Positions 2,710 to 14,824 of a stretch of DNA of 14,824 bases are shown piece after piece. The position numbers and the translations under genes were made by a program. The notes under the pieces are model-generated. The model did no database searches. It was not told where the DNA came from and was given only the letters and a program-made list of their open reading frames with translations. The DNA comes from Rikenellaceae bacterium. GTDB taxonomy: Bacteria > Bacteroidota > Bacteroidia > Bacteroidales > Rikenellaceae. Numbering within the stretch: the stretch's first letter is position 1; each line of letters starts with the position of its first letter. The DNA lies in NCBI GenBank assembly GCA_902362705.1, contig CABIXK010000012.1:1-14824 (forward strand), given 5' to 3'.

Positions 2710-3678
2710 ATGACACAGGAGGCAGTCGGCAGACAGATCGAGATCGAAGGGGTCGATCCGCGCGAGCTCTACGGCCCGCAGGAGGCCTACCTGGACCGTA
2801 TCCGCGAACTGCACCCCTCGCTGCGGATCGTGGCGCGCGGGTCGTCGCTCAGGGTGCTGGGCGCGGAGGCCGAGACGGCGCGCTTCGCCCGCCGCATGGA
2901 GGGGCTGGTGGCCTACTACATCAAGTACGGCCACATCTCGTCGGAGGTTGTGGACCAGTGCTTCTCGGGCGAGGCCGTGGCGCCGCACGAGGCGCCGGTC
3001 GACAAGGACGTGATCGTCTACGGCAACAACGGCAACATCGTGCGCGCCCGCACGGTCAACCAGCAGCGGCTCGTGAAGCTCTACGACACGTGCGACCTGC
3101 TCTTCGCCGTGGGGCCCGCGGGCTCGGGCAAGACCTACACGGCCATCGCCCTGGCCGTGCGCGCGTTGCGCGAGAAGCAGGTGCGGCGCATCATCCTCAC
3201 GCGCCCGGCCGTGGAGGCGGGCGAGAAGCTGGGCTTCCTGCCCGGCGACATGAAGGAGAAGCTCGACCCCTACCTCCAGCCGTTGTACGACGCGCTGAAC
3301 GACATGATCCCGCCGGCCAAGCTGCAGAAGTATCTGGAGGAGGGGACCGTGCAGATAGCACCGCTGGCCTACATGCGCGGGCGGACGCTCGACAACGCCT
3401 TCGTCATCCTCGACGAGGCGCAGAATACGACCCTCGCGCAGATCAAGATGTTCCTCACGCGCATGGGCCGCAACGCCCGCTTCATCGTGACGGGCGACGT
3501 GACGCAGATCGACCTGCCGCGCCGCGCCGACAGCGGACTGGTGCGGGCGCAGGAGTACCTGCGGCGGGTCGAGGGGATCGGCTTCGTGGAGTTCGACCGC
3601 CGCGACATCGTGCGCCACCCGCTGGTGAAGCAGATCGTGGAGGCGTTCGATAAGCAGGAGGGGGAAAGTGATAAGTAA
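2710..3678 (+). CDS. phoH: PhoH-like ATPase
   Basis: This 322-aa protein matches the PhoH/YbeZ family in length and motifs. An N-terminal region of about 110 residues, containing a KH-like segment ([14 protein letters not shown]), precedes the P-loop ATPase: Walker A GPAGSGKT at 135-142, [19 protein letters not shown] at 162-180, Walker [12 protein letters not shown] at 231-241, and [10 protein letters not shown] at 261-270. The family is cytoplasmic and linked to RNA metabolism and ribosome maturation, often acting with the YbeY endonuclease, which is not in this window. It follows the barrel gene by 3 nt. Its last codons (E-G-E-S-D-K-stop) are made from the start of the 7-nt repeat array at 3661-3695, so the C-terminal tail may have been altered by repeat insertion. 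Confidence 0.95.
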
Positions 3679-3695
3679 AAAGTAGAAAGTAGAAA
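3661..3695 (+). repeat. A-rich 7-nt-period array overlapping the end of phoH
   Basis: Five consecutive heptamers can be aligned: GGGGAAA, GTGATAA, GTAAAAA, GTAGAAA, GTAGAAA. The phoH stop codon TAA (3676-3678) lies inside the third unit. The same period is seen at 6626-6667, 14457-14491 and 14525-14566, and inverted at 6720-6754. Confidence 0.8.
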
Positions 3696-3700
3696 GTTTT

Positions 3701-3793
3701 CGGCTCGCAGCCAGCGGAGGCGCGACGAAGGCGGACGCCGAAGGAGCAGCCCTCCGCCGGGGGTGGCTGCGGGCTGCCCGGCCCGAGGCCGGG
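3701..3793 (+). repeat. Composite hairpin repeat, copy 1
   Basis: The long hairpin has a 13-bp outer stem (3701-3713 with 3764-3776, two G-U pairs), a 6-nt bulge CGGGGG on the 3' side, and a perfect 7-bp inner stem GCGGAGG/CCTCCGC (3714-3720 with 3751-3757). A short hairpin follows with no gap: CCCGGCC, loop CGA, GGCCGGG at 3777-3793. Copies 2 (4016-4112, opposite strand) and 3 (14574-14669) have the same layout. Confidence 0.85.
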
Positions 3794-3814
3794 AATGAAT
3801 AATTGTGCATTGCG
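3794..3814 (+). repeat. Second-type 7-nt-period array (ATTGTGC type), short
   Basis: Three heptamers, ATGAATA, ATTGTGC and ATTGCGC, follow the short hairpin of copy 1 directly. A longer array of the same type (TTGTGCA units) lies downstream of copy 3 at 14726-14760. Confidence 0.6.
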
Positions 3815-3844
3815 CCGCCGATGGCGCCGCCACCTCCCGTCCGG

Positions 3845-3961
3845 CGAAAAAGGCGGCCGTCGGACGGCGGCTAAAAGCGCGAGCGAGGGGGCCGGTTTGC
3901 TTGCAAACCCGCGACGAGGCGCCCCGAGCCAGCGTTAGACGTCGTCGGACAGCCTTTTTCG
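3845..3961. repeat. About 117-nt imperfect palindrome with a nested apical hairpin
   Basis: Outer arms CGAAAAAGGC (3845-3854) and GCCTTTTTCG (3952-3961) are perfect 10-bp complements. Nearly at the centre is a second perfect hairpin, GGTTTGC-TT-GCAAACC (3894-3909). Partly complementary GTCGGAC/GTCCGAC-like stretches lie between. No coding sequence is convincing here. Confidence 0.7.
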
Positions 3962-3981
3962 TCAGCGGGCCGGCTTTTTGC

Positions 3982-4009
3982 GGCGCTTTTTGCCGGAACA
4001 AAAAGCGCC
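3982..4009. repeat. 10-bp hairpin GGCGCTTTTT / AAAAAGCGCC
   Basis: A perfect 10-bp stem encloses the 8-nt loop GCCGGAAC. On either strand one arm ends in a five-base T run, but the T run is inside the stem, so it is not a standard terminator. It may still slow transcription leaving phoH. Confidence 0.65.
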
Positions 4010-4015
4010 AGAATC

Positions 4016-4112
4016 CCGAAGCCGCAGGCTTCGGCAGCCCGCAGCCACCTGGCGCGGAGGGCTGCTCGTCTCGCCCGAAGGCTCGCCGGCCCCTCCGCTG
4101 GCTGCGGGCTGC
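4016..4112 (-). repeat. Composite hairpin repeat, copy 2 (inverted)
   Basis: Read on the minus strand, the long hairpin comes first: a perfect 14-bp outer stem (GCAGCCCGCAGCCA with TGGCTGCGGGCTGC, plus-strand 4034-4047 and 4099-4112), a 6-nt bulge, and an 8-bp inner stem (4054-4061 with 4091-4098). A short hairpin follows at once (plus-strand 4016-4034, CCGAAGCC, loop, GGCTTCGG). The short hairpin has a different sequence from copies 1 and 3, but a stem of 8 bp and the same place. Confidence 0.83.
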
Positions 4113-4117
4113 AAACG

Positions 4118-4142
4118 CCCCCCCCCCCGGCTCTTAGCCGGG
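4118..4142. repeat. C11 homopolymer and a short CCCGGCT/AGCCGGG hairpin
   Basis: Eleven C residues (4118-4128) run into the hairpin CCCGGCT-CTT-AGCCGGG (4126-4142). The hairpin is the exact reverse complement of the short hairpin of copy 3 at 14653-14669. It ends about 90 nt before the pepD start codon. Confidence 0.8.
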
Positions 4143-4231
4143 CGCTGGCTGCGGCCCGAAAAAGAGAAGAGCCGGACGCGGCTGCGAACCGAACGAAAAA
4201 GAAAATATACTGACCTTAAACTGAAATAGTT

Positions 4232-5677
4232 ATGAACAGAGATTTGACGGCGCTCCGACCGGAGCTCGTGTGGAAACATTTCGCGCAGATCGCGCGCATC
4301 CCCCGTCCCTCGGGCCACGAGGAGGCGATCCGCGCCTACGTGGCGGGCGTCGCCCGCTCCCTGGGGCTCGAGTGCAGCGAGGACGAGGCGCACAACGTCT
4401 ACGTGCGCAAGCCCGCCACGCCGGGCATGGAGGACCGCAAGGGCGTGGTGTTGCAGGCCCACCTCGACATGGTGCCGCAGAAGAACAACGACAAGACTTT
4501 CGACTTCGAGCAGGACCCCATCGACGCCTACATCGACGGCGACTGGGTGACGGCCGACGGCACGACGCTTGGGGCCGACAACGGCATCGGCGCGGCTGCG
4601 ATTCTCGCCGTGCTGGAGGACAGCACGCTGGTCCACGGCCCGCTGGAGGCGCTCTTCACCGCCACCGAGGAGACCGGCATGGACGGCGCCTTCGGGCTCA
4701 AGGCGGGCCTTCTGCAGGGCGACATCCTGCTCAACCTCGACTCGGAGACCGAGGGCGAACTCTACGTGGGCTGCGCCGGCGGTCTGGACGCCAACATCAC
4801 GCTCGACTACGCCACCGAGCCCGCACCGGCCGGCTGCAAGGCCTACCGGCTCTGTGTCAAGGGGCTCAAGGGCGGCCACTCGGGCATCCAGATCGTGGCT
4901 CAGCGTGCCAACGCCAACAAGCTGCTCTTCCGTCTTCTGAACCGCACCGAGGGCGTGTCGATCGCCTCGGTCGACGGCGGCGGGTTGCGCAACGCCATCC
5001 CGCGCGAGGCCGTGGCCGTGGTCACGGTGCCCGACGGCGCGGCGTTCGAGGCTGCGGTGGCCGCCTACGAGAAGACCGTGCAGGCCGAATATGCCGGCGT
5101 GGAGGATGCCATCCGCATCTTCGCCGAGCCGTGCGAGCAGCCCTCTGAGGTCATCGCTGGCGAGGCTGCCCGGCGCCTGATGCGTGCCGTGGTGGCGTGC
5201 CCCGACGGCGTGGAGCGCATGTCGGAGGCGATGCCCGGGCTGGTGGAGACCTCCACGAACCTGGCGCGCGTGGTCTCGGACGGCCGCTGCGTGAAGATGC
5301 AGTGTCTGCTGCGCAGCTCGGTCAACTCGGCCAAGGAGGCTCTGGGCGAGGCGATCTCGGCGGTGATGGATCTGGCCGGCGCTGCGACCGAGCTCTCGGG
5401 CGCCTACAACGGCTGGAACCCCGACATGGAGTCGCCCATCCTGAAGGCCATGACCGAGTCCTACGAGGCGCTCTACGGCCGCAAGCCGCTCGTGACGGCC
5501 ATCCACGCCGGTCTGGAGTGCGGCATCATCGGCAGCAACTACCCCTCGCTCGACATGATCTCGTTCGGACCCACGATCTGCTACCCCCACTCGCCCGACG
5601 AGAAGGTGGAGATCGCCTCGGTCGGCAAGTTCTACGACTTCCTGGTCCATACGCTGCGCAACGTTCCCCGCAAGTAG
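4232..5677 (+). CDS. pepD: Aminoacyl-histidine dipeptidase (Xaa-His dipeptidase, peptidase M20C)
   Basis: The 481-aa length and motif set fit the cytosolic di-zinc PepD family, which cleaves Xaa-His and related dipeptides. Visible blocks: IPRPSGHEE near residue 27, the metal-binding QAHLDMVPQ (H77, D79), DGTTLGADNGIG (D116, bridging aspartate), TATEETGMDGAFGL (E146/E147, general base and ligand), LNLDSE (D170), KGGHSG in the lid/dimerisation domain (213-218), HAGLECG (H425) and the C-terminal FGPTICYPHSPDEKVEI with H453 as last ligand. All expected metal ligands are present, so it should be active. The start ATG at 4232 is well placed before MNRDLTALRPELVWKHF. The kinase gene begins 9 nt after the stop. 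Upstream is the repeat block, and no clean promoter box was found next to the gene. Confidence 0.95.
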   Translation: MNRDLTALRPELVWKHFAQIARIPRPSGHEEAIRAYVAGVARSLGLECSEDEAHNVYVRKPATPGMEDRKGVVLQAHLDMVPQKNNDKTFDFEQDPIDAYIDGDWVTADGTTLGADNGIGAAAILAVLEDSTLVHGPLEALFTATEETGMDGAFGLKAGLLQGDILLNLDSETEGELYVGCAGGLDANITLDYATEPAPAGCKAYRLCVKGLKGGHSGIQIVAQRANANKLLFRLLNRTEGVSIASVDGGGLRNAIPREAVAVVTVPDGAAFEAAVAAYEKTVQAEYAGVEDAIRIFAEPCEQPSEVIAGEAARRLMRAVVACPDGVERMSEAMPGLVETSTNLARVVSDGRCVKMQCLLRSSVNSAKEALGEAISAVMDLAGAATELSGAYNGWNPDMESPILKAMTESYEALYGRKPLVTAIHAGLECGIIGSNYPSLDMISFGPTICYPHSPDEKVEIASVGKFYDFLVHTLRNVPRK

Positions 5678-5686
5678 ACCGCAGCT

Positions 5687-6637
5687 TTGGAATCGACGAC
5701 CGACAGGAAGTGGTTCATGATCGTCAACCCCGCGGCCGGCGAAGGCCGCGGGCTCGACGATTTTCCCCTCGTCTCGCGCCTGCTGCGCGAGGCCGGCGTG
5801 GTATACGAACCCGTGTTCACGGAGCACAAGTGCCATGCCACGGAGCTCACCGTGGCGGCCGTGCGGCAGGGCTACCGACGCATCATCGTCGTGGGCGGCG
5901 ACGGCACGCTGCACGAGGTGGTCAACGGGCTCTTCATCCAGCAGGAGGCGGCGCCCCACGAGGTGCTGCTGGCCGTCGTGGCCGTGGGCTCGGGCAATGG
6001 CTGGGTCCGCTCGTTCGGCCTCTCGGGCCGCTACGGCGAGGCCGTGCGCGCCATCGCCGAGGAGCGCTCGTTCCTACAGGACGTGGGGGTGGTGAGCTAC
6101 GAGGAGGCCCACTACCGCCAGAGCCGCTACATGGCCAACGCGGCGGGCGTGGGCTTCGAGGCCTATGTCATGGGGCGCATCGCCCACCTGCGCAACAAGG
6201 GGCGCACGGGCGGCCTGCGCCGCACGTGGTGTCTGGTCCGCTCGTTCTTCCGCTACAAGTCGACGGGCGTGAAGGTGTGGGTCGACGACCGCCTGGTCTA
6301 CAACGACCTGCTGCTGTCGGTGGCCATCGGCATCTGCAAGTTCAACGCCGCGGGCATGCAGCAGCTGCCGGCCGCCGTGGCCGACGACGGCATGTTCGAC
6401 GTCTCGCTCGTGCGGCCCGTCCACTTCTGGCACATCCTCTTCCGGGTTCGCTACCTCTTCAACGGCGGCATCTACCGCATCCGCCACATCCTGCAGGAGT
6501 GCGGCAGCCGCATCCGCATCGAGTCGTCGCCCGAGGTGCCGCTGGAGGTCGACGGCGAGCTGCTGGGCGGCTCGCCCCTGAGTTTCGAGATCCTCCACCG
6601 GGCGATCCGGGTGGTGGTGGGGGAGGGCAGAAGTTGA
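5687..6637 (+). CDS. Diacylglycerol-kinase-family lipid kinase
   Basis: This 316-aa protein has the DAGK catalytic signature: KWFMIVNPAAGEGRG near the N-terminus, the nucleotide-binding VVGGDGTLHEVVNG (GGDGT at 70-74), VAVGSGNGWVRS (GSGN at 101-104), ANAAGVGFEAYV, and the C-terminal VDGELLGG (288-295). It should use ATP to phosphorylate a lipid such as diacylglycerol or a sphingoid base at the inner face of the membrane; sequence alone does not say which. I chose the TTG start at 5687 because residues KWF before the first ATG (5717) belong to the usual first strand of this fold. It lies 9 nt after pepD, so they probably share a transcript. Its stop codon TGA (6635-6637) lies inside the first GTTGAAA unit of a 7-nt repeat array, which also supplies the last codons. 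Confidence 0.9.
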   Translation: MESTTDRKWFMIVNPAAGEGRGLDDFPLVSRLLREAGVVYEPVFTEHKCHATELTVAAVRQGYRRIIVVGGDGTLHEVVNGLFIQQEAAPHEVLLAVVAVGSGNGWVRSFGLSGRYGEAVRAIAEERSFLQDVGVVSYEEAHYRQSRYMANAAGVGFEAYVMGRIAHLRNKGRTGGLRRTWCLVRSFFRYKSTGVKVWVDDRLVYNDLLLSVAIGICKFNAAGMQQLPAAVADDGMFDVSLVRPVHFWHILFRVRYLFNGGIYRIRHILQECGSRIRIESSPEVPLEVDGELLGGSPLSFEILHRAIRVVVGEGRS

Positions 6638-6667
6638 AAATTGAAAATGGAGAGTTGAAAATGGAGA
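6626..6667 (+). repeat. A-rich 7-nt-period array overlapping the end of the lipid kinase gene
   Basis: Six heptamers align: GGCAGAA, GTTGAAA, ATTGAAA, ATGGAGA, GTTGAAA, ATGGAGA. The TGA stop of the kinase gene is within the second unit. Confidence 0.83.
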
Positions 6668-14524: not shown

Positions 14525-14566
14525 GTGAATTGAAAATTGAAAGTGGAAAATTGAAAATGGGGACTT
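14525..14566 (+). repeat. A-rich 7-nt-period array preceding hairpin repeat copy 3
   Basis: Six units align: GTGAATT, GAAAATT, GAAAGTG, GAAAATT, GAAAATG, GGGACTT. It stands 8 nt before the long hairpin of copy 3, as the array at 3661-3695 stands before copy 1. Confidence 0.83.
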
Positions 14567-14573
14567 CCGTTTT

Positions 14574-14669
14574 CAGCCCGTAGCCAGCGGGGCGTTCGGG
14601 AGGAGCTTTGCTGACAGAACAGTCCTTCGCCGGGGAGGGTGGCTACGGGCTGCCCGGCTAAGAGCCGGG
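14574..14669 (+). repeat. Composite hairpin repeat, copy 3
   Basis: The long hairpin has a perfect 13-bp outer stem CAGCCCGTAGCCA / TGGCTACGGGCTG (14574-14586 with 14640-14652), a 3'-side bulge of 9 nt and a 6-bp inner stem with two G-U pairs (14587-14592 with 14625-14630). The short hairpin CCCGGCT-AAG-AGCCGGG (14653-14669) follows with no gap and runs into TTTTATTATTT, so this copy also resembles a terminator on the plus strand. Confidence 0.87.
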
Positions 14670-14725
14670 TTTTATTATTTGCACTTGCAGTCCTCCGCCG
14701 GAGGTGCGTTTATCGCGGCATTTCA

Positions 14726-14760: not shown

Positions 14761-14824
14761 GCCTCGGGCTTCGTCCCTTTGCCGGCTCGCGCCTTTGGCG
14801 CGACCGCCCCAGCCGGCAAAGGGA
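14757..14824. repeat. Adjacent palindromes at the window edge
   Basis: The hairpin CGAAGCC-TCG-GGCTTCG (14757-14773) is followed directly by a larger palindrome with perfect 14-bp arms TCCCTTTGCCGGCT (14774-14787) and AGCCGGCAAAGGGA (14811-14824), enclosing the hairpin CGCGCC-TTT-GGCGCG (14788-14802). The structure may continue past the window end. Confidence 0.8.

Follow-up and report, generated by a model that had tools for sequence, protein, structure and literature searches.

A short folded intergenic repeat of Alistipes-group genomes, probably an orphan population of REPIN-like palindromic DNA

The spread of REP and REPIN sequences is currently explained by RAYT transposases. REPINs are inverted doublets of REPs, for which the available parts of one report describe frequent compensatory changes, clustering in tandem and two folds, a long hairpin and a clover (PMC3116915). 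REPs tagged with CGTC are said, in the accessible portion of another article, to lack a dedicated transposase (PMC3733652), and orphan REPs as such are therefore not new. For Bacteroidetes, excerpts of published work describe TnpA_REP subclass 2.6, in which Y1 genes are flanked by atypical secondary structures repeated in the genome (PMC6006769), and palindromic candidate RNAs such as HMP2_1032, HMP2_1065, HMP2_4078 and HMP2_4205 (PMC8040213), one or more of which might, by their description, be the family treated here; other MITE-type repeats are named in Porphyromonas in the available part of PMC5771137. Searches of the open-licence literature turned up, in its accessible parts, no account of a repeat of this kind in Alistipes.

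The DNA analysed here, called the window, is a stretch of 14,824 nucleotides of contig CABIXK010000012.1 from a Rikenellaceae bacterium, and is syntenic with G001, the nearest genome compared, at 83 to 94% nucleotide identity across the main blocks. Alistipes is a genus common in the gut. Between the genes of some Alistipes-type bacteria lies a short folded element, present in dozens to hundreds of copies, whose paired letters change together. The element is non-coding, about 105 nt long, and reads from 5' to 3': U, A, B, a variable inner hairpin, M, B', a 6-nt bulge, A', M' and a short 3' hairpin. Its right half (M, B', bulge, A', M') alone forms a REP-like hairpin, and its left half approximates the reverse complement of the right half minus the 6-nt bulge.

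A preliminary description had placed three copies in the window (Table 1), each with an outer stem, an inner stem, a one-sided bulge and an adjoining short hairpin, and the letters bear this out for places, strands and parts alike; the bulge, present in all three, is 6 nt long in copies 1 and 2 and extends to 9 nt in copy 3. The outer stem of copy 1 does differ from that of copy 3 by a C-G to T-A change and two swaps of G-U and Watson-Crick pairs, the C-G to T-A change in the short hairpin is real, and the short stem of copy 2 is different in sequence yet complementary. The stems of the earlier layout thus stand, while a third helix, M-M', had been overlooked, and the outermost part of the outer stem (U-M') proved to be the least conserved helix. 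The partial copy probably arose by internal deletion; locus L206 in G073 holds a somewhat similar, internally deleted element that keeps only outer repeats, M' and the 3' hairpin.

Table 1. Features of the window; E-values of the copies come from a covariance model (CM) built from these copies among others.
Feature	Position	Strand	Basis or remark
phoH-like gene	2710..3678	+	PF02562 E 7.7e-91; upstream of copy 1
Composite with copies 1, 2 and partial copy	3651..4191		missing from the phoH-pepD spacer at the syntenic place in G001; blastn (window versus L100), junction letters
Copy 1, whole	3701..3793	+	letters, folds; CM match 3698-3807 (+), E 1.3e-18
Copy 1, left parts	A 3706-3713, B 3714-3719, variable inner hairpin 3720-3745	+	letters
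Copy 1, M (GCAGCC), complement of M'	3746..3751	+	M-M' helix counts
Copy 1, right parts	B' 3752-3757, bulge 3758-3763, A' 3764-3771, 3' hairpin 3777-3793	+	letters
Copy 1, M' (GGCTGC)	3772..3777	+	M-M' helix counts
Copy 2, inverted relative to copy 1	4016..4112	-	letters; CM match 4006-4114 (-), E 4.8e-15
Copy 2, left parts and M	A 4106-4099, B 4098-4093, M 4065-4060	-	letters
Copy 2, right parts	B' 4059-4054, bulge 4053-4048, A' 4047-4040, M' 4039-4034, 3' hairpin 4033-4016	-	letters
Partial copy: element start fused without a gap to a 3' hairpin that matches copy 3's exactly	4126..4162	-	letters; inverted pair I25, 18 nt, 100%
M20-family dipeptidase-like gene (pepD-like)	4232..5677	+	PF01546 E 3e-15; downstream of composite
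Copy 3	14574..14669	+	letters; CM match 14571-14683 (+), E 8.2e-13
Copy 3, left parts and M	A 14579-14586, B 14587-14592, M 14619-14624	+	letters
Copy 3, right parts	B' 14625-14630, bulge 14631-14639 (9 nt), A' 14640-14647, M' 14648-14653, 3' hairpin 14653-14669	+	letters

AT-rich, minisatellite-like stretches (e.g., TTGAAAA units) lie at window positions 3672-3700, 6620-6667 and 14530-14563, beside elements and in another spacer, and at locus L045 such stretches form inverted arms around an element. A second structured repeat at window positions 14777-14821, in which CTTTGCCGGC and an inner TCGCGC/GCGCGA hairpin are followed by CCGCCCC and GCCGGCAAAG, has similar stretches in loci L006, L057 and L191 and stands beside several elements.

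Pairing was assessed in an alignment (A1) of 52 rows, 46 from G001, three from G013 and three from the window, which derives from 54 parsed copies after two were dropped by eye as false, L054 was left out for its long insert and copy 3 was added by hand. Paired cells make up 98.4% of the 1040 (A-A' 98.3%, B-B' 99.0%, M-M' 97.8%), and both-sided changes occur in 53 cells as compared with 14.5 in shuffles, in two pairs of A-A', one of B-B' and three of M-M'; when partners are slid by one to three columns, pairing falls to 24-54%. The U-M' helix, with 77.9% of cells paired, is the lowest. A structured repeat family with changes that preserve pairing, as first proposed from three copies, is also seen in the copies of relatives, where the stem changes checked across many copies mostly keep pairing.

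The M segment occurs as GCAGCC, GCGGCC, GCGGGC, GCAGTC and GCAACC among others, each with its complement at M', and as GCGAGC and GCAGGC in other species, so that at least seven versions, each seen with a complementary M', are firmly established across the genus. This linkage was checked in 40 other copies (20 from G073, eight from G003, five from G008 and seven from G013), mostly the best-scoring and hence non-random, which had been found by a model treating M-M' as unpaired columns, though its sequence profile still covered M and M'. All six M-M' pairs form in 33 of them (permuted mean 23.6, maximum 29 in 5000 permutations), or in 31 with Watson-Crick pairs alone (permuted mean 13.8, maximum 22), M being placed at the better of two offsets and the permutations treated alike. 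In G208, M-M' is fully paired in 73 of 88 copies against a permuted mean of 71.8, a test that says nothing, because M hardly varies there. An element tree built from the remaining columns has about 14 changes in M and 16 in M' (16.9 for shuffled labels), the two switching together about 14 to 16 times; since only one of 14 independent pairs sits on well-supported branches, inheritance of the right half as a block may explain much of the M-M' linkage.

The 3' hairpin behaves differently from this core, as it varies strongly in G208 and yet stays paired. On contig C1 of that genome a good stem directly follows 162 of 263 anchors (the A'-M' junction), whereas control positions 60 nt further along gave 14 of 263. 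The 166 stems used include 39 different 5' sequences, and pairwise differences between stems fall on both sides 47355 times and on one side 2426 times, a ratio inflated because the stems were selected for pairing. At about 233,350-233,570 of the same contig, mini-units of about 62 nt stand in tandem; their spacers are almost identical and their hairpin stems different, as if hairpins were swapped as cassettes.

The covariance-model search of relatives proposed in the preliminary description did recover many more copies, all in same-genus genomes. G001 alone gave at least 43 matches at the DNA level (40 of 120 candidates scored), and a narrow-pattern scan of genome contigs gave 23 stretches, all in this one Alistipes assembly. 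A covariance model built from 52 copies with A-A' and B-B' paired and M-M' unpaired matched, at a cut-off of E 0.001, five of 81 genomes (5/49 same-genus, 0/32 others), with at least 47 copies in G001, 45 in G013, 46 in G073, eight in G003 and five in G008, at most 47 candidates having been scored in each under stricter filters. In selected stretches of G001 and G013, mostly picked for the copies in them, the model matched 27 and 8 times, respectively; 100 kb from G003 and 40 kb each from G008 and G020 gave no match. A strict pattern, for which the reversed control gave 0 in each genome, matched 19 of 180 same-genus genomes, with 351 matches in G208, 84 in G001, 35 in G013 and 29 each in G184 and G073; the single match in G010 looks like chance by eye.

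A first architecture scan was discarded as too loose, since it matched shuffled sequence many times; a stricter filter gave 29 matches in G001, 11 in G013, two in the window and between 0 and 3 in each of the other genomes, missing copy 3 and including several, in G001 and G013 too, that look like chance by eye. Copy 1 had no match among phage and plasmid records, and Rfam 15 yielded only a tRNA at gathering cut-offs, its two matches at the composite being far below theirs. A pattern scan of IMG/VR found two contigs (L243 and L244) with one match each, which may be viral or host DNA. As far as sequence searches reached, the family appears confined to one genus.

Mapping the copies relative to genes, as had also been suggested, places them between genes. 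With overlap counted above 25 bp, none of 52 copies (46 in G001, four in G013, two in the window) overlaps a gene called by a caller trained on window genes, nor is there overlap with a called gene for any of the 87 first-type copies (88 parsed, one dropped as false) on G208 contig C1, which is 62% GC and 73% called coding. The window copies have ordinary genes as neighbours: phoH, M20 dipeptidase, diacylglycerol-kinase-like, YjbR, phosphofructokinase, NMN transporter and TonB receptor. A second element type adds 40 copies on C1, bringing both types to 127 in 369 kb, a density that by extrapolation would correspond to roughly 860 copies in 2.5 Mb. The contexts of 86 classified G208 copies are balanced (29 sense, 31 antisense, 13 convergent, 13 divergent), and among the 36 neighbours of the first type that lie within 400 bp, 34 share the same orientation. 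Of the two alternatives raised earlier, propagation as palindromic DNA accordingly fits better than a fixed RNA role, because this best-sampled genome has no strand preference relative to genes.

The composites differ in presence and absence between two species: that of the window is absent in G001, which in turn has composites in its YjbR-PFK and PFK-cold-shock spacers where the window has none, and the spacer upstream of TonB contains element remnants in both. In 12 other same-genus genomes, those showing a pepD-like gene start, the phoH-pepD spacer is short and element-free by eye; G003 has its own divergent copy there.

As RNA, all three window copies fold better than dinucleotide-shuffled sequences (z -3.7, -3.8 and -4.5 for copies 1, 2 and 3; 0/200 shuffles as good for each), although in the best fold of copy 3 the hairpin interior pairs otherwise and only the outer stem and short hairpin are as first described. 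For DNA folds, computed for copies 1 and 3, the signal is weak in copy 1 (z -1.9, 7/200 shuffles as good; other strand -1.8, 6/200) and strong in copy 3 (z -5.2, 0/200). With M placed inside the A stem, M' outside it and no linker available, the M-M' helix should, on geometric grounds, be incompatible with the whole long hairpin and compete with it, which would give two alternative folds, as proposed for REPINs: one long bulged hairpin with A-A' and B-B' (F1), or a row of local hairpins with M-M' and its neighbours followed by the 3' hairpin (F2). The best DNA fold is F1 in 50/52 top and 43/52 bottom strands of A1 and in 78/87 and 71/87 of G208. Against the two-fold model, it is rarely F2 (0/52 top and 6/52 bottom in A1; 1/87 and 4/87 in G208). 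Counted in favour of two folds, F2 in A1 lies above F1 by a median of 8.2 kcal/mol on top strands (n=52) and 4.7 on bottom strands (n=51), coming within 2 kcal/mol in 3/52 and 12/51 strands, respectively.

The preliminary description had also suggested looking for a REP-type (RAYT) transposase. Domain searches (Y1_Tnp, PF01797; RAYT/IS200) found none in 37 genomes of the same genus, as against positives in 19 of 24 from other genera, and none in the 18 carrier genomes (all pattern carriers but G010), including G208, which is 99% complete; these same-genus and carrier genomes are relatives of the one that contains the window. RAYT as the driver is thus rejected as far as searched. Other candidates fared no better in a set of 15 genomes: IS110-type proteins (PF02371) occur in three and are absent from G208, G001, G184 and G073, and reverse transcriptases (PF00078) occur in nine, G001 and G073 not among them, with no consistent link. 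The Y2 transposase (PF04986) was matched in 0/15, which is no evidence of absence, because no control genome was positive either. Ten genes on G208 C1 have copies within 400 bp on both sides, and none of the eight that were Pfam-scanned is a transposase. Two reverse transcriptase matches lie close together at G208:C6:117597-119617, perhaps a defence or retroelement locus.

We consider it rather likely that the copies are an orphan REPIN-like population of palindromic DNA in Alistipes-group genomes, spread by a putative activity other than RAYT. Replication would expose single-stranded DNA of the element, which would fold; the folded strand would be recognised by its shape by a putative trans-acting activity, and new copies would insert between genes, pointing either way, and persist at those sites. 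Copying would continue only for elements with arms that can still pair, and this is proposed as the reason why stems stay complementary while their letters drift. It counts against such mobility that no mobilising protein was found among the families searched. Not all the rivals considered below exclude one another or this explanation.

A doubtful variant is a RAYT-free, REPIN-like spread in which a host or mobile enzyme would read only the shape of the folded strand, with the 3' hairpin as a handle of free sequence; because its arms would be renewed together at each copying, dozens of stem versions could stand beside an almost fixed core in one genome.

It also seems rather unlikely in general that the core is cargo of a MITE, a non-autonomous transposon that has terminal inverted repeats and depends on a DDE transposase for its movement, although copies inside longer terminal inverted repeats point to that route in G073. 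Several copies there are flanked by imperfect inverted repeats (GTATCNAYTTTNGGCTTG) paired around cores, with 18 matches at up to two mismatches compared with four for the reversed control, and two of them (L159 and L167) have by eye short AT-rich direct repeats outside. However, there is no autonomous copy among the 18 matches, and in a scan of 93 copies for inverted flanks only four exceeded 99% of the background and ten more exceeded 95%, which is above chance yet a minority, the four including AT-rich arms and other modules. Cores inside imperfect terminal inverted repeats (GGAAGTATC...GGCTTG) were seen at G073 loci L158, L159, L167, L197 and L200.

Neutral correction of quasi-palindromes, in which a change in one arm is transferred to its partner by template switching and pairing is kept without selection on the fold, is unlikely, although the covariation itself may reflect either selection or such palindrome-correcting mutation. 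The many different G208 3' stems and their excess of both-sided differences are what it would produce, though the choice of stems by their pairing inflates that excess, but it leaves unexplained both the spread to hundreds of places and a nearly fixed core beside a free 3' hairpin. Many differently paired stems in a single genome offer a natural data set for setting selection on folded DNA against palindrome-correcting mutation. The density reached in G208, 127 copies in 369 kb, where searches found no RAYT, also makes it directly testable how palindromes are copied and by what.

A structured RNA or a bidirectional terminator at gene ends is improbable. The RNA folds are stable, the mainly G001 set of 52 copies has 22 in convergent and only 4 in divergent contexts (14 sense, 12 antisense; no baseline), and a T-rich tail follows 2 of 45 scored 3' hairpins in A1, where tails are cut short, copy 3 being followed by TTTTATTATTT; on the other hand, no Rfam family was found, none of 82 G208 3' hairpins has such a tail, and G208 C1 spacers hold first-type elements in 8/26 convergent, 32/101 tandem and 9/27 divergent cases. 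Finally, attC-like sites of an integron-type tyrosine recombinase, making direct arrays, would suit folded hairpins with variable stems and the shared orientation of G208 neighbours, but are highly improbable, as neither of the attC R boxes, GTTRRRY and RYYYAAC, is present in the three window copies.

The orphan, REPIN-like population favoured here can be set against each described system. It resembles MITEs in being small, non-coding and dispersed, with outer inverted repeats in some G073 copies, and differs in that G001 and window copies have no consistent terminal inverted repeats, G208 having been judged by eye only. The structures of TnpA_REP subclass 2.6 come from the same phylum and are likewise atypical and genome-repeated, but, in the accessible text, flank Y1 transposase genes, of which none was detected in the genomes searched here (PMC6006769). 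The element resembles the CGTC REPs, palindromic repeats that according to the available text lack a dedicated transposase, and it differs in length (about 105 nt against their 20-40 bp) and in having no CGTC foot (PMC3733652): neither a GT[AG]G nor a CGTC tag lies within 8 nt of three feet in any of the 87 first-type G208 copies, and the GTAG of window copy 3 is inside the A stem, not at a foot.

The likeness to REPINs, judged by the available parts of their description, covers intergenic position, high copy number, what may be inverted units joined in a single long hairpin, a long-hairpin fold with a clover alternative, compensatory changes and clustering in tandem (PMC3116915). Many extragenic imperfect palindromes, a REP and REPIN trait, are found here too, as gene overlap and pattern counts attest. 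For the trait of two inverted units the picture is mixed: A-A', B-B', M-M' and, less well, U-M' are paired, but the symmetry is incomplete, because the left half has little or no M partner (4.23 of 6 pairs against 3.44 shuffled in G208, little trace; 3.53 against 3.55 in A1, none). Unlike REPINs, the element has asymmetric halves, with the bulge on one side only, and a strongly variable 3' hairpin, and because neither a tag nor a RAYT was found where searched we do not class it as a REPIN, though it works like one. Like BIMEs, it forms intergenic mosaics that combine palindromes with spacer modules, but it differs from them in that neighbours in G208 mostly keep one orientation instead of alternating, the pair in the window being inverted. 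The likeness in idea to REP and BIME elements first noted for the window matches what its relatives show.
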